Shown here piece after piece: positions 38,599 to 44,355 of a DNA stretch of 57,617 nucleotides (its first letter is position 1; every line of letters starts with the position of its first letter). Below the pieces are notes generated by a model that saw only the letters and a program-made list of their open reading frames with translations, made no database searches and had not been told where the DNA came from. The position numbers and the translations under genes are program-made. The stretch covers positions 1-57,617 of the forward strand of contig NZ_VICE01000090.1 in assembly GCF_006546775.1 (NCBI RefSeq), given 5' to 3'. The DNA is from Marilutibacter aestuarii. Lineage in GTDB: Bacteria > Pseudomonadota > Gammaproteobacteria > Xanthomonadales > Xanthomonadaceae.

Positions 38599-40461
38599 TC
38601 ACCTGTACCCCGCCGCCTGCAGCTCGAACAGCTCCGCGTAGCGGCCGCCGGCGGCCATCAGCTCGTCATGGGTGCCGCTGGCCTCGAGCCGGCCTTCGGC
38701 CAGCACCAGGATGCGGTCGGCCATGCGCACGCTGCTGAAGCGGTGCGAGATCAGCACCGCCGTGCGGCGGTCGGACAGTTCCTTGAAGCGCTGGAACACC
38801 TCGAACTCCGCCCGCGCGTCCAGCGCGGCGGTGGGTTCGTCGAGGATCATCACCTGTGCTTCGCGCATGTAGGCGCGGGCGATCGCGATCTTCTGCCATT
38901 GCCCGCCGGACAGGTCCACGCCGGTCTTGAAGCGCCGTCCGATGACCTGGTCGTAGCCCTGTGGCAGGCCGGCGATCATCGTATCGGCCATCGCGCGCGC
39001 GGCCGCGTCGCGGATCCGCCCGGCGTCGTCCATGGCCTCGATCCGGCCGACGCCGATGTTCTCGCCGGCGGTGAGGTGGTAGCGGACGAAATCCTGGAAG
39101 ATCACCCCGATGTTGGCCCGCAACTGTTCCAGGTCGTACTCGCGCAGGTCGTGGCCATCGAGCAGGATGCGGCCCTCGTCGGGGTCGTAGAGGCGCGCCA
39201 GCAGCTTGACCAGGGTGGTCTTGCCCGCGCCGTTCTCGCCGACCAGTGCCAGCACCTCGCCGGCGCGAAGCTCGAAGTCCAGCCCGCGCAGCGCCCACGT
39301 GTCCGCGTCCGGATAGCGGAAGCCGACGTTCTCGAACACGAAGCCTTGCCGGATCGGCTGCGGCACGTCGCGCGGTGCCGCTGGCGTGGCGATCTCCGGC
39401 CGGATCGCGAAGAACGAAAACAGGTCGTCCAGGTACAGGGCCTGGCCGGCGACCTGCGAGAAGCCCACCAGCAGGCCTTCCAGCAGCTGTCGCAGGCGCA
39501 GGAAACTGCCGGCGAGGAAGGTCAGGTCGCCGATGCTGAAGTCGCCGCTGACGGTGCGCCAGGCGATGTAGGCGTACGCGACGTAGTACCCCAGCGTGCC
39601 GAGCGCCGCGAGCAGCGTGCCCCAGAACGCCCGGCGCCGGGCGAGCGTGCGGTTCGCGCGGAAGAAGCGCCCCGCCAGTTCGCGGTAGCGTTCGATCAGG
39701 AAGGTGTGGAGGTTGAAGATCTTCACCTCCTTGGCGGTCTCGACGCTGGCCCCCATCTGGCGGACGTACTCGAGCTGGCGACGCTCGGGCGTCCACGCGA
39801 AGTTGAGCGAGTAGCCGAGTGCGTTGAAGTGCGACTCCCCGATGAAGGCCGGGACCAGGGCCACCGCGAGCAGGGCGATCAGCCAGGGCGCGTACACCAG
39901 CAGGCCGGCGGCGAAACTGGCCACGGTGATCATGTCCTGCACCTGGCCGAAGATCTGGCTCATCAGGTTGACCCGGCCCATGGTCTGGCGCCGGGCGCGG
40001 TCGAGCTTGTCCTGCAGGTCGGGATCCTCGAAGTCCTCCAGGTCGAGCGTCGCGGCGTGCTCCATGAGGCGCACGCTGGTCGCGTTGGTGAACAGCTCCG
40101 AGAGCAGGGCATCGCCATAGCTCACCAGCCGGCCGATCAGGTCCGAGGCGATCGCCAGTCCGAATTCGGCCGCCAGCAACGTGGCCAGGGTATCGAAGCG
40201 ATGGCTGGCGATGGCGTCGGCCAGCGTGCCGGTGGCCACGCCGCTGCCGACCAGGGCGACCACCTCGTCGATGATCAGCTTGCCGACGAACAGCATCAGC
40301 ACCGGCAGGAAGGCCCGCACCAGGCGCAGGCCGAGGGTCATCAGGGTGAGCGCGGGACTGGTCGCCCAGATCATCCGCAGGAATGGCGGCAGGTTGCGCA
40401 GCGCGTCGAAGCGCTCGCGCAGGCTGGGTTTGGAACCGCCTTGCGATGCGGGGGCGGGCAT
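38599..40461 (-). CDS. ABC transporter, fused permease/ATPase (exporter type)
   Basis: 620 residues: an N-terminal six-helix membrane domain (about 25-330) followed by one ATPase domain. Walker A GENGAGKTT (408-416), Q-loop FQDF, signature LSGGQ, Walker B VMILDEPTAALD, switch His in ISHRFSSV. It should work as a homodimer exporting lipid, peptide or drug-like substrates; none is specified. The permease half lacks peptidase or double-glycine-processing domains. It is the only exporter in the window, 11 kb from the glucan synthase; it is not obviously the glucan exporter NdvA. The ATG at 40461 begins a Pro/Ala/Gly-rich tail. Confidence 0.93.
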   Translation of the reverse strand: MPAPASQGGSKPSLRERFDALRNLPPFLRMIWATSPALTLMTLGLRLVRAFLPVLMLFVGKLIIDEVVALVGSGVATGTLADAIASHRFDTLATLLAAEFGLAIASDLIGRLVSYGDALLSELFTNATSVRLMEHAATLDLEDFEDPDLQDKLDRARRQTMGRVNLMSQIFGQVQDMITVASFAAGLLVYAPWLIALLAVALVPAFIGESHFNALGYSLNFAWTPERRQLEYVRQMGASVETAKEVKIFNLHTFLIERYRELAGRFFRANRTLARRRAFWGTLLAALGTLGYYVAYAYIAWRTVSGDFSIGDLTFLAGSFLRLRQLLEGLLVGFSQVAGQALYLDDLFSFFAIRPEIATPAAPRDVPQPIRQGFVFENVGFRYPDADTWALRGLDFELRAGEVLALVGENGAGKTTLVKLLARLYDPDEGRILLDGHDLREYDLEQLRANIGVIFQDFVRYHLTAGENIGVGRIEAMDDAGRIRDAAARAMADTMIAGLPQGYDQVIGRRFKTGVDLSGGQWQKIAIARAYMREAQVMILDEPTAALDARAEFEVFQRFKELSDRRTAVLISHRFSSVRMADRILVLAEGRLEASGTHDELMAAGGRYAELFELQAAGYR

Positions 40462-40505
40462 GGCGCCTTCCTGGACCGGGATGCCGGGAGTGTACGCGTT
40501 CGGCG

Positions 40506-40536
40506 ACGACGGCCGGCGCCGGGTGCCGGCCGTCGT
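40506..40536 (-). terminator. Perfect 12-base-pair stem-loop after the AhpD-like gene
   Basis: Arms 40506-40517 and 40525-40536 with a 7-base loop, 17 bases after the stop of the AhpD-like gene and before the ABC gene on the same strand. No T tract follows on the minus strand, so its strength as a terminator is uncertain. Confidence 0.5.
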
Positions 40537-40553
40537 TCCTCCGGTCCTGCGGC

Positions 40554-41021
40554 TCAGGCTGCGGCGGCGACGTACGGCGTCTCGGGCAGGGGCCGGCGCA
40601 GGCCGACGTTGAGCATGTTCCAGGCCCGGATGGCCGCGACCGCGAAGCTCAGCTCACTGACCTCGCGCGCATCGAACTCGGCCTGAAGCGCCTCGAGCGC
40701 GCCCTCGGGAACCGCTTGGCAGCCCAGCGCATTGAGTGCCTCGGCCCAGGCGAGCGCGGCACGTTCGCGCGCATCGAACAACGGCGACTCGCGCCATGCC
40801 GCCACGGTATCGAGCTTGCGTTGGGCGACACCCGAGCGGCGCAGCGCTTCGGCATGCATGTCCAGGCAGAACACGCAGCCATTGAGCTGGGACACGCGCA
40901 GCGACACCAGTTCCACCAGTCGTGGCCCCAGCGGGCCCTTGTAGAGCTGTGCGCTGAGCTGGGCCAGCTGCTGGAACGCGCGCGGTGCGTGCGTGGCGTA
41001 GTCGACGGGGGCATTGTCCAT
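40554..41021 (-). CDS. AhpD/carboxymuconolactone-decarboxylase-like protein, ECF41 partner
   Basis: 155 residues, all-helical CMD/AhpD fold. The alkylhydroperoxidase motif is CVFCLDMH, with Cys49, Cys52 and His56. It probably has peroxidase or disulfide-reductase activity, as AhpD does, but its electron donor is unknown. The ATG at 41021 follows AGAGGA at 8 bases. It lies 96 bases downstream of the ECF sigma gene on the same strand, with its own ECF41-type promoter in that gap (41071-41097). A CMD-family gene is one of the standard neighbours of ECF41 sigma factors, so it is the likely target of the adjacent regulator. Confidence 0.92.
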   Translation of the reverse strand: MDNAPVDYATHAPRAFQQLAQLSAQLYKGPLGPRLVELVSLRVSQLNGCVFCLDMHAEALRRSGVAQRKLDTVAAWRESPLFDARERAALAWAEALNALGCQAVPEGALEALQAEFDAREVSELSFAVAAIRAWNMLNVGLRRPLPETPYVAAAA

Positions 41022-41070
41022 GGGGTTCGTCCTCTTCGCATTGCGGCCGGGATGGCCGTTCCAGGTCAAG

Positions 41071-41097
41071 GACGTGGCGCGACGCTTGCGCGTGACA
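41071..41097 (-). promoter_or_regulatory. ECF41-type promoter of the AhpD-like gene
   Basis: On the minus strand TGTCACG (41097-41091), a 16-base spacer and CGTC (41074-41071), matching the motif reported for ECF41 sigma factors except for the last base of the first element. It starts a leader of roughly 45 bases that includes a good ribosome-binding site. Confidence 0.85.
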
Positions 41098-41117
41098 CTG
41101 CGCGGACGCCGCCTTGC

Positions 41118-41981
41118 TCAGTTCGCCCGCCAGTGGCGCAGCTTGACGGGGTTCAGGACGGTGAATATGCCGTCGATGCGGCCCTCGCGGAGGGTGATCG
41201 TGGTGACCGACTCCAGCCGGCCCTCGCGCGTGCGGATGATGGCCGGTTCGCCATTGACCGTGCCGATCGTGGCGTGGATCTCCTGGCCGACCCTGCGCGC
41301 GACCGCGGCGTAGAGCCGGCCGATGCGCTCGGCGCCGAACAGGGGCCGGATGGCCGCCGTGACCTTGCCGCCGCCGTCGGAGACCAGGCGCGCGTTCGCG
41401 TCGAGCAGGCGCACGATGGCGGATTCGTCGCCGGTCTGGGCGGCCTGCATGAAGCGCGTGAGCAGTTCGCGATGGCGATCGCGGTGGACTTCGAAGCGCG
41501 GGCGTCCCGCCTGCAGGCGCCCACGTGCGCGATGCACCATCTGCCGGCAGTTGGCCACGCTGTGCCCCAGGAGCGCCGCGATCTGCTCGTAGTCATGGTC
41601 GAAGGCTTCCTTCAGCAGGAAGGCCGCGCGTTCCTCGGGTCCCAGCCGCTCGAGAAGGGCCAGGAAGGCCAGCGACACCTGGTCGGCGATCTCGGCGCCG
41701 GCCTCGGGCGTGGCGGATGCATCCACGTCCACGGGTTCGGGCAGCCAGGGGCCCGGGTAGGCGTCGCGTTCGTGCCGGAGCCTGCGCAGGCGGTCGATCC
41801 CCAGCCGCGTGGTCGCGGTGACCAGCCAGGCTTCCGGGTCGCGGACGGCGTCCCGTTCCGCCTGCGACCACCGCAGCCAGGCGTCCTGGACCACGTCCTC
41901 GGCGTCGCCGCGGCTGCCGAGCAGCCGGTAGGCCAGCGCGAACAGGCGTGGGCGGTGGTGCTGGAAAATGTCGATGGTCAT
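41118..41981 (-). CDS. sigJ: ECF41-type RNA polymerase sigma factor (SigJ-like) with SnoaL-like C-terminal domain
   Basis: 287 residues: sigma region 2 (about 5-75), linker with WLPEP (79-83), region 4 (about 100-158) and a C-terminal SnoaL-like domain (about 165-287) carrying DGGGK (202-206) and NPVKL (277-281). These three motifs are hallmarks of ECF41 sigma factors, in which the fused C-terminal domain replaces a separate anti-sigma factor and both restrains and supports activity. The usual last motif letters are DGGGR and NPDKL, so small changes are present. ATG 41981 is chosen because the promoter lies directly upstream; an upstream ATG at 42041 falls before that promoter. It probably controls itself and the AhpD-like gene. 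Confidence 0.93.
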   Translation of the reverse strand: MTIDIFQHHRPRLFALAYRLLGSRGDAEDVVQDAWLRWSQAERDAVRDPEAWLVTATTRLGIDRLRRLRHERDAYPGPWLPEPVDVDASATPEAGAEIADQVSLAFLALLERLGPEERAAFLLKEAFDHDYEQIAALLGHSVANCRQMVHRARGRLQAGRPRFEVHRDRHRELLTRFMQAAQTGDESAIVRLLDANARLVSDGGGKVTAAIRPLFGAERIGRLYAAVARRVGQEIHATIGTVNGEPAIIRTREGRLESVTTITLREGRIDGIFTVLNPVKLRHWRAN

Positions 41982-41990
41982 GTGGGGCAG

Positions 41991-42017
41991 GACGGGGCAG
42001 GGCGCGTGCGCGTGACA
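41991..42017 (-). promoter_or_regulatory. ECF41-type autoregulatory promoter of the sigma factor gene
   Basis: On the minus strand TGTCACG (42017-42011), a 16-base spacer and CGTC (41994-41991). The -10 element ends 9 bases before the ATG, so the transcript should be leaderless or nearly so. Its first 11 bases (TGTCACGCGCA) are identical to those of the second promoter at 41071-41097. Confidence 0.85.
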
Positions 42018-42030
42018 GTGCGGGACCGGT

Positions 42031-42663
42031 TCAGGCGGCATCGTCCCCGGGCGGGGCCTGCAGGGCCTTGGGCAAGTGCCAGCCGTAGCGCAGCGCCGCC
42101 AGCCGCAGGGAGAAGCACAGCGCGACGCCCGCGACGGTCACCGGCACCGGGGGCAGATGCAGCACGCTCCCGACCGCCACCACGCTGGCGCCGGCCAGTG
42201 CCGCGATCGCGTAGAGCTCGGCATGCAGGACCAGCGGCACCCGGGCCAGCAGGACGTCGCGCAGCATGCCCCCGCCGATCCCGCTCAGCATGCCCAGGCA
42301 GGGCGCCATCAGCGGCCCGATCCCCGCGCCGAGCGCCTTGTCGGTGCCGGCGACGGCGAACACCGCCAGGCCCAGGGCGTCGAACACGCGCACCGGCTGG
42401 TGCAGGCGCTCGATCCAGGGGCTCCAGGCGAAGGCGATCAGGCCGGCGCTGATCCAGATGGCCGGGTAGCGCCAGTCGTGCAGCGCGGCGGGCGGGGTGG
42501 CGCCGATCAGCAGGTCGCGCAGGATGCCGCCGGCGCTGGCGGTGGCGAAGGCCAGCACCAGCACCCCGAACAGGTCCAGGCGGTGGCGCACGCCGAGCAT
42601 GGCGCCGCTGAGCGCGAACACGAAGGTGCCGATCAGGTCGAGATGGAGGATGAGGCTTTGCAT
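42031..42663 (-). CDS. TRIC-type trimeric cation channel family protein (UPF0126, YadS-like)
   Basis: 210 residues, about seven transmembrane helices. Two UPF0126 repeats, each with a glycine-rich kink and Arg-Asp: SAGGILRDLLIG and SGIGGGMLRDVLLAR. Prokaryotic TRIC proteins are homotrimeric potassium-permeable channels in the inner membrane; the physiological role is not settled. It ends 50 bases before the sigma factor start, and that gap contains the sigma factor's own promoter, so it need not belong to that regulon. It is divergent from the fumarase gene. Confidence 0.9.
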   Translation of the reverse strand: MQSLILHLDLIGTFVFALSGAMLGVRHRLDLFGVLVLAFATASAGGILRDLLIGATPPAALHDWRYPAIWISAGLIAFAWSPWIERLHQPVRVFDALGLAVFAVAGTDKALGAGIGPLMAPCLGMLSGIGGGMLRDVLLARVPLVLHAELYAIAALAGASVVAVGSVLHLPPVPVTVAGVALCFSLRLAALRYGWHLPKALQAPPGDDAA

Positions 42664-42765
42664 TGGGGGCGTCCGCGGCGACGGGTCCGTCCCGGCCCGG
42701 GCCGGGGCGCACCGCGCACTATACCGGCCGCGTCCGGCGCGGCTGCGTGCGGCGGGGCCGGGCAG

Positions 42766-42771
42766 TAGAAT
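42766..42771 (+). promoter_or_regulatory. TAGAAT box directly abutting the annotated fumarase ATG
   Basis: TAGAAT immediately precedes the ATG at 42772. If it is the -10 box, transcription starts inside the annotated coding sequence, which would favour the in-frame GTG at 42802 as the true start. Confidence 0.45.
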
Positions 42772-44355
42772 ATGGCCCCCACCGCCAAGCCAGCCGATGC
42801 CGTGACCGCCAGCCAGCCCGCTTCCCGGACGCCTGTTTCGATCAAGCAGGATGATTTCATCCAGTCCGTCGCCGACGCCCTGCAGTACATCAGCTACTAC
42901 CACCCGGTCGATTACATCCGGAACCTCGCCGCGGCCCATGAGCGCGAGGCCTCGCCGGCGGCGAAGGACGCGATGGCGCAGATCCTGATCAATTCGCGGC
43001 TGTGCGCCGAGGGCCACCGGCCGATCTGCCAGGACACCGGCATCGTCACCGTGTTCCTCGAGATCGGCATGGACGTGCGCTGGGACGACGCCACCATGGG
43101 CGTGGAGGACATGGTCCACGAAGGCGTCCGTCGCGCCTACAACCATCCCGACAACAAGCTGCGTGCCAGCGTCCTGGCCGATCCGGCGGGCAAGCGCGCC
43201 AATACCCGGGACAACACGCCGGGCGTCGTCAACGTGAAGATCGTGCCGGGCAACACCGTCGACGTCATCGTCGCGGCCAAGGGCGGCGGCTCGGAAGCGA
43301 AGTCGAAGTTCGCCATGCTCAATCCCTCCGATTCGATCGTCGACTGGGTGCTGCGCACCGTCCCGACGATGGGCGCCGGCTGGTGCCCCCCCGGCATGCT
43401 CGGGATTGGTATCGGCGGCACCGCCGAGAAGGCCATGCTGCTGGCCAAGGAGTCGCTGATGGAGCCGATCGACATCACCGACCTGCAGGCGCGCGGGCCG
43501 TCGAACCGCGCCGAGGAACTGCGCCTGGAGCTGTACGAGAAGGTCAATGCGCTGGGTATCGGCGCCCAGGGCCTGGGAGGGCTGACCACGGTGCTCGACA
43601 TCAAGGTCAAGGACTACCCCACGCACGCGGCGAACCTGCCGGTGGCGATGATCCCCAACTGCGCCGCCACCCGCCACGCCCACTTCACCCTCGACGGCAG
43701 CGGCCCGGTCACGCTCGATCCGCCCTCGCTGGAGGACTGGCCCGAGCTGACCTACGACGCCAGCAAGGGACGCCGGGTCGACCTCGATGCCATCACGCCG
43801 GACGAGGTCGCCAGCTGGAAGCCCGGTGAGGTGCTGTTGCTCAACGGCAAGCTGCTGACCGGGCGCGACGCGGCGCACAAGCGCATCGTCTCGATGCTCG
43901 ACAAGGGCGAGCCGCTGCCGGTCGATTTCAAGGGACGCTTCATCTACTACGTCGGGCCCGTTGATCCGGTCCGCGACGAAGTGGTGGGTCCCGCCGGTCC
44001 CACCACCGCGACACGCATGGACAAGTTCACCGAGCAGGTGCTCGAACAGACCGGCCTGCTGGGCATGGTCGGCAAGGCCGAGCGCGGCCCGGTCGCGATC
44101 GAGGCGATCCGCAAGCACCGCTCGGCCTACCTGATGGCGGTCGGCGGGGCGGCCTACCTGGTGTCGAAGGCGATCAAGGCCGCGCGCGTCGTCGCCTTCG
44201 AGGACCTAGGCATGGAGGCGATCTACGAGTTCACCGTGCAGGACATGCCGGTGACGGTGGCGGTCGACAGCCAGGGCGAGTCGGTGCACCGCACCGGGCC
44301 GCGCGAGTGGCAGGCGCGCATCGGCAAGATCCCGGTCGTGGTGGAGCCGGCATGA
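42772..44355 (+). CDS. fumA: Class I (iron-sulfur) fumarate hydratase
   Basis: 527 residues. Converts fumarate and malate in the citric acid cycle using a [4Fe-4S] cluster. Candidate cluster ligands are Cys86 in RPICQDTG, Cys205 in GWCPPGMLG and Cys297 in PNCAATRHAHF; the 119- and 92-residue spacings match class I enzymes. Other family strings: KGGGSEAKSKFAML and VGPVDPVRDEVVGPAGPTTATRMD. The first 22 residues are poor in family similarity and the enzyme core begins about IKQDDFIQS, so the start may be the GTG at 42802. The stop overlaps the GST start (ATGA), so both are translated together. Confidence 0.94.
   Translation: MAPTAKPADAVTASQPASRTPVSIKQDDFIQSVADALQYISYYHPVDYIRNLAAAHEREASPAAKDAMAQILINSRLCAEGHRPICQDTGIVTVFLEIGMDVRWDDATMGVEDMVHEGVRRAYNHPDNKLRASVLADPAGKRANTRDNTPGVVNVKIVPGNTVDVIVAAKGGGSEAKSKFAMLNPSDSIVDWVLRTVPTMGAGWCPPGMLGIGIGGTAEKAMLLAKESLMEPIDITDLQARGPSNRAEELRLELYEKVNALGIGAQGLGGLTTVLDIKVKDYPTHAANLPVAMIPNCAATRHAHFTLDGSGPVTLDPPSLEDWPELTYDASKGRRVDLDAITPDEVASWKPGEVLLLNGKLLTGRDAAHKRIVSMLDKGEPLPVDFKGRFIYYVGPVDPVRDEVVGPAGPTTATRMDKFTEQVLEQTGLLGMVGKAERGPVAIEAIRKHRSAYLMAVGGAAYLVSKAIKAARVVAFEDLGMEAIYEFTVQDMPVTVAVDSQGESVHRTGPREWQARIGKIPVVVEPA

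Follow-up and report, generated by a model that had tools for sequence, protein, structure and literature searches.

ECF41 sigma factors are widespread, and the group, its TGTCACA-N16-CGTC promoter motif and its neighbour genes were described in 2012 (Wecke 2012, PMC3426412). According to the available text of that study, the ECF-then-COE arrangement occurs at 53 of 373 loci, the motif stands before both genes in 20% of these 53, and no inducing condition was known for ECF41. The Ecf41 systems of B. licheniformis and R. sphaeroides described there share with the locus studied here the sigma2/sigma4 regions followed by a C-terminal extension, the WLPEP motif, a CMD neighbour and a TGTCACA-N16-CGTC-type promoter at both genes, and our locus differs from them in a G at the seventh base of the -35 element, a predicted leaderless sigma message and a hairpin near the 5' end of the CMD leader. 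RpoE9, the ECF41 sigma factor of S. meliloti, likewise has one CMD target and the same promoter type, its motif lying 9 nt upstream of the mapped transcription start (PMC3616915, available text), but there, unlike in our locus, the CMD gene precedes rpoE9, and the two are likely transcribed together from a single start upstream of both. Stabilising 5'-terminal stem-loops such as that of the E. coli ompA mRNA resemble the CMD leader in placing a hairpin a few nucleotides from the 5' end (here predicted), followed by the Shine-Dalgarno region; our case differs in that, within one regulon, a similar hairpin recurs at the effector gene but is missing from the sigma gene, and in that its stabilising role is putative.

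The gene pair, the motif and the autoregulated layout are not new, since all were described in 2012 (PMC3426412, available text), which bears out an earlier reading of this DNA, made from the sequence alone, in which motif and gene pairing were called established for ECF41. The main text of the same paper contains no mention of leaderless messages, hairpins or stem-loops, palindromes or inverted repeats, and a leaderless ECF41 sigma gene is not mentioned in the available text of the S. meliloti start-site paper (PMC3616915). The only stem-loop found in the ECF41 papers searched lies upstream of a fructose PTS gene. In the openly accessible literature searched we found no report of a leaderless ECF41 sigma gene or of a CMD hairpin, though an earlier one may exist. 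This is a normal ECF41 locus at which a predicted split between the 5' ends of regulator and effector messages is conserved and, as far as our searches show, undescribed. We think it rather probable that the locus is a one-component ECF41 switch in which two self-recognised promoters produce messages with opposite 5' ends.

The locus and the relatives compared

The window, the whole stretch that was analysed, is 57,617 nt of Marilutibacter aestuarii DNA (positions 1 to 57,617 of contig NZ_VICE01000090.1). Positions of the features discussed are given in Table 1.

Table 1. Features of the ECF41 locus in the window.
Feature	Position	Strand	Basis
ECF41 sigma factor, 287 aa: region 2, WLPEP linker, region 4, C-terminal SnoaL-like extension	41118..41981	minus	
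ECF41-type promoter of the sigma gene, TGTCACG-N16-CGTC	41991..42017	minus	motif match, genome count, recurrence in relatives
Sigma ATG, 9 nt after CGTC	41979..41981	minus	predicted transcription start at its A or 1 nt before
ECF41-type promoter of the CMD gene, TGTCACG-N16-CGTC	41071..41097	minus	motif match, recurrence in relatives
Predicted CMD transcription start (G), 9 nt after CGTC	41062..41062	minus	G in 72/92 leaders; S. meliloti offset
5' hairpin CGGCC-ATCCC-GGCCG, 4 nt from the predicted 5' end	41044..41058	minus	
Shine-Dalgarno-like AGAGGA of the CMD gene	41030..41035	minus	sequence
CMD/AhpD-like protein, 155 aa, with CVFCLDMH (CxxC...H)	40554..41021	minus	

Relatives came from a family set (ECF41 loci of 63 out of 149 genomes, matched at E 1e-20), an order set (68 of 250 genomes at E 1e-60, partly overlapping the family-set genomes) and a named-species set (the best 80 of at least 591 stretches, among which Stenotrophomonas, Pseudoxanthomonas and Luteimonas relatives stand at 63-68% identity). 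Sigma matches left out were two G104 fragments and G116:C76 in the family set, and G279:C80, G323 and the second G168 copy in the order set. We analysed 205 loci, or 184 after dropping those at least 95% identical, and these loci are related by descent, so that row counts are not independent. The close set comprises the 40 loci with at least 57% identity, the window included. A sigma-gene site is present in 112 of the 184 loci, a CMD match in 126, and a CMD site in 95 of those 126. Sites, spacings, the presence or absence of a Shine-Dalgarno sequence, conservation and covariation were all scored on the sequences themselves.

The sigma protein was assigned to ECF41 by the sequence-only reading, and this is upheld. 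It scores 339.7 bits against TIGR02957 (cut-off 323.25) and is the only one of nine matches in the genome to exceed that cut-off. M. tuberculosis SigJ (PDB 5xe7) can be aligned with it nearly over its full length, the C-terminal domain included (residues 3-281, E 1.7e-49). As is characteristic of ECF41, regions 2 and 4 (Pfam, residues 5-69 and 104-156 of 287) are followed by an extension of about 100 residues, in which Pfam calls no domain, and the linker carries WLPEP. We conclude that the protein is an ECF41/SigJ-type sigma factor. DGGG is a conserved motif of the ECF41 extension. The three motifs previously named as hallmarks, WLPEP, DGGGK and NPVKL, are all present; DGGGK is the commonest form of its motif and NPVKL a one-residue variant, and SigJ has DSNGK and NPDKF at these places. 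NPDKL is the conserved form of the second motif and is reported, in the available text, to connect the C-terminal domain with the linker motif when the protein is compact (PMC7730460), so the change to NPVKL (41139-41153) might loosen inhibition; NPDKL stands in 101 of the 184 loci and in the 89%-identical sister locus, L008.

The 155-aa protein belongs to the CMD family (PF02627), and its closest solved relatives include PA0269. ECF41 loci have an adjoining CMD, oxidoreductase or epimerase gene and no anti-sigma gene, and this was found here, with the PF02627 gene next door. Of the other two neighbours tested, one is a PF03458 membrane protein and the other an ABC transporter. The PF03458 gene (42031-42663, minus) runs in the same direction as the sigma gene and ends 13 bases before the sigma promoter, and read-through from it into the sigma gene is possible.

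Two ECF41-type promoters

Two minus-strand TGTCACG-N16-CGTC sites had been pointed out in the sequence-only reading, and both were found at the positions it gave, the sigma-gene site reading TGTCACGCGCACGCGCCCTGCCCCGTC and the CMD-gene site TGTCACGCGCAAGCGTCGCGCCACGTC. Both spacers are 16 bases long as claimed, but their first 11 bases are not identical: the 11 identical bases, TGTCACGCGCA, begin with the -35 element itself, at its first base, and the spacers proper have only their first 4 bases in a row in common. Both sites agree with the ECF41 consensus TGTCACA-N16-CGTC except at the seventh base, where, as had been noticed, each has G instead of the reported A.

In shuffled windows TGTCAC[AG]-N15-17-CGTC matched 0.28 times on average, and two or more matches occurred in 3 of 100 shuffles. 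The genome-wide search that had been suggested as a check was made over all 3,491,084 bases (3.49 Mb, 156 contigs), where TGTCAC[AG]-N16-CGTC occurs three times, twice at this locus, compared with a single match for the reversed control pattern. The third match sits within an ORF, which by eye we take to encode a phospholipase D-type protein. Allowing any seventh base and one base more or less in the spacer (TGTCAC-N16-18-CGTC) gave seven genome matches, and only the two at the locus have a gene start shortly downstream. The remaining five were rejected as marking further regulon members, as all lie within mechanical ORFs (100 aa or more), and no ORF of at least 100 aa starts within 150 nt of them on the strand of the site; these searches used CGTC, and no variant such as CGTT, as the -10 element. 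A consensus scan of 40400-42800 returned no sigma-70 promoter and no intrinsic terminator.

Both sites are free of mismatches in TGTCAC and CGTC in 35 of the 40 close loci (window included), which backs the earlier suggestion that the sigma factor controls its own gene and the CMD gene; on this conservation we consider that it probably does. The bases after the -10 element (41067-41070 and 41987-41990) are also alike at the two promoters: in the close set C-T is usual (C 85-97%, T 79-91%), and a G at position 4 is frequent (62-71%). This would extend the published CGTC consensus. Ten paralogous ECF41 loci (L094, L095, L102, L103, L109, L114, L115, L118, L127 and L129) have a CMD gene about 1 kb upstream and a leaderless-type ECF41 site at the sigma gene, and no ECF41 site was found before their CMD genes, so their target may differ.

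The seventh-base G, together with DGGGK and NPVKL as departures from DGGGR and NPDKL, had been taken to suggest a co-varied subgroup, a proposal that we reject on the mixed seventh bases and motif counts. G and A are equally frequent in the 112 sigma-gene sites (56 each), and the 95 CMD sites have G in 62 and A in 33. Where both bases could be paired (84 loci), the combinations are G/G 46, A/A 20, A/G 14 and G/A 4, so that the two promoters of one locus are unlike in 18 of 84 (and in 8 of 39 close loci). A simple pattern match finds DGGGK in 87 of 184 loci, alongside both G and A, DGGGR in 10 and NPVKL in one. The nearest relative (L008) has DGGGK, NPDKL and G at both promoters. DGGGR, put forward as the reported form, is absent from the main text of PMC3426412, and our literature search found it only in work on another subject.

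A predicted leaderless sigma message

In the window, the CGTC of the sigma promoter is followed by 9 nt, CTGCCCCAC, and then by ATG. There is no Shine-Dalgarno sequence in this leader, and the stretch from the site to the first 30 nt of the gene offers no alternative in-frame start. With the 9-nt offset of S. meliloti and a 9-nt spacing, the sigma message should start on the AUG or one base before it, and we predict that it is leaderless. The 2012 study gives, in its available text, a G start with a 22/23-nt leader and, in its Table 5, a distance of 31/32 nt from the postulated start (PMC3426412); the difference, a comparison that we draw ourselves, is 9 and consistent with the S. meliloti offset. 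The transcription starts expected in the sequence-only reading, 41985-41988 and 41064-41067, thus give way to about 41982-41981 and 41062. Position 9 after CGTC is C in the window and position 10 is the A of the ATG, and as the offset comes from one alphaproteobacterium and is good to about one base, transcription may begin 1 nt ahead of the AUG.

Of the 112 loci with a sigma-gene site, 58 have 8-11 nt between CGTC and ATG and 48 have 20-40 nt, and the spacing suggests leaderless translation of the sigma message in about half of them (58/112). Shine-Dalgarno-like 4-mers are present in 4 of the 58 short and 36 of the 48 long sigma leaders, and in 86 of the 95 CMD leaders. In the close set, the ATG stands at 8-9 nt in 33 of 40 loci, with two more having an in-frame ATG at 8 nt (35/40), and the other five have a sigma leader of 29-33 nt. 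On a quick tree of 108 loci (4 of the 112, with other leader lengths, were left out), the short type requires seven changes, at least three of them forced by well-supported branches; this tree has long branches and does not distinguish gain from loss. The short type is found in 35 of the 40 rows of the window's clade and in all 22 rows of a second clade, which includes Burkholderiales as well as paralogous loci from the order to which the window belongs.

The sigma protein might also be translated from a longer message reading through from upstream, its own promoter being minor, and the sigma frame is indeed open upstream to an ATG at 42041, with the upstream gene ending so close to the promoter. 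We regard this as very improbable. Some relatives have a spacing of 8 nt and others one of 9 nt; this one-base switch moves the promoter out of register with the reading frame of the gene, breaks any common upstream frame and argues against an upstream start. In addition, no Shine-Dalgarno sequence precedes the ATG at 41981. We propose instead that, because the start is leaderless and lacks a Shine-Dalgarno sequence, messages reading through from upstream would be poorly translated, and the sigma protein would come mainly from its own promoter.

A predicted hairpin near the start of the CMD message

By the S. meliloti offset, the CMD leader would be 41 nt long and open with GGAACGGCCATCCCGGCCG. 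Position 9 after CGTC is G in 72 of 92 CMD leaders, the 92 being those of 30-60 nt among the 95 (L057, L073 and L076 dropped) and serving also for the stem and folding tests. The best stem of at least 5 pairs begins 11-14 nt downstream of CGTC in 36 of the 39 CMD leaders from the close set, in 30 of 41 other leaders of downstream or opposite-strand CMD genes and in 6 of 12 leaders of upstream CMD genes. A stem at the same place occurs in 8.4-8.7% of random windows from the same loci and in 1 of 106 sigma leaders (0/48 long, 1/58 short). The window's CMD leader folds with the stem, modestly better than its shuffles (z -1.08, or -0.90 in the mononucleotide-shuffle test), and the mean z, with mononucleotide shuffles, is -1.72 where the CMD gene lies downstream or on the opposite strand and -1.02 where it lies upstream. 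No Rfam match was obtained in 40500-42700 up to E 1.

These figures bear on the view that this is a plain, known ECF41 locus, at which the sigma factor controls itself and CMD and neither the spacing of the start nor the palindrome in the leader matters for regulation. In its favour, motif, gene pairing and two-promoter arrangement were all described in 2012 (PMC3426412, available text), but a bimodal start spacing with matching loss of the Shine-Dalgarno sequence, clustered on the tree, would be unexpected without selection, as would a stem in CMD leaders and not in sigma leaders. We hold it to be improbable.

Covariation was assessed in an alignment of 68 distinct leaders of 40-57 nt, from CMD genes with at least 39% identity on the downstream or opposite side. 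Four rows without the CGGCC stem (L151, L153, L156 and L166) had been removed by hand, and L074 and L075 were already too short, so the covariation and RNAalifold results hold among stem-bearing rows; the stem frequencies given above were counted before any such removal. In these 68 selected rows, 6 of 8 pairs show double changes (32 of 544 cells), and 81.4% of cells pair, compared with 25-45% in slid controls; none of 500 shuffles reached any of five measures. The five core pairs are nearly invariant, the commonest pair being present in 61-66 of 68 rows, and the two outer pairs and the inner pair fail to pair in 36, 24 and 36 rows, respectively. RNAalifold predicts the five core pairs only, with a covariation term of -0.2.

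A nearly fixed CGGCC/GGCCG core is what would be expected of a DNA operator, in which a dimeric regulator binds CGGCC-N5-GGCCG a short way downstream of the start and gives the CMD gene alone a second input, and the constant distance from the promoter and the absence of the palindrome from sigma leaders fit this equally. Two features speak against it: the outer pairs are A-U in register for G-C in 10 and 9 of the 68 rows, and some loci (L058, L067, L069, L070, L116, L117 and L189) have a stem of different sequence in that position. Since beyond the core it is pairing rather than sequence that is kept, we favour protection of the RNA and consider an operator unlikely.

Stabilising 5' stem-loops tolerate only a few unpaired bases at the 5' end. 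The features listed as protecting bacterial mRNAs from cleavage include stem-loops and the presence or absence of a leader (PMC7509114, available text, citing Emory 1992). For the switch with two opposite 5' ends that we prefer, we infer start sites, leaderless translation, hairpin stabilisation and sigma dependence as follows. The C-terminal SnoaL-like domain of the sigma factor would inhibit it, as reported for ECF41 relatives, and once active the sigma factor would initiate at both TGTCACG-N16-CGTC sites. Transcription of the sigma gene would begin at the AUG and yield a leaderless mRNA lacking a Shine-Dalgarno sequence; at the CMD gene it would begin 4 nt before a GC-rich hairpin, which is followed by a Shine-Dalgarno sequence and most likely shields the 5' end and lengthens the life of the message. 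The sigma message would in this way be tightly gated and the effector message durable, with the same promoter signal driving both. The leaderless route could tie the switch to conditions that favour leaderless messages, and the CMD hairpin would explain unequal output of regulator and effector from one promoter signal.

More tentatively, the two messages may represent split designs, with a leaderless regulator message lacking a Shine-Dalgarno sequence and a hairpin-capped, long-lived effector message, conserved together in the window's clade and each found without its counterpart elsewhere in ECF41. Translation without a Shine-Dalgarno sequence would then make the sigma message largely independent of ordinary 30S initiation. 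Among Burkholderiales, a stem is found in 2 of 7 CMD leaders (weakly in L151, and in L189), and L151, L156, L164 and L166 combine leaderless-type sigma sites with no strong 5' stem at the CMD gene, so that the leaderless-type sigma site and the CMD stem are separable.
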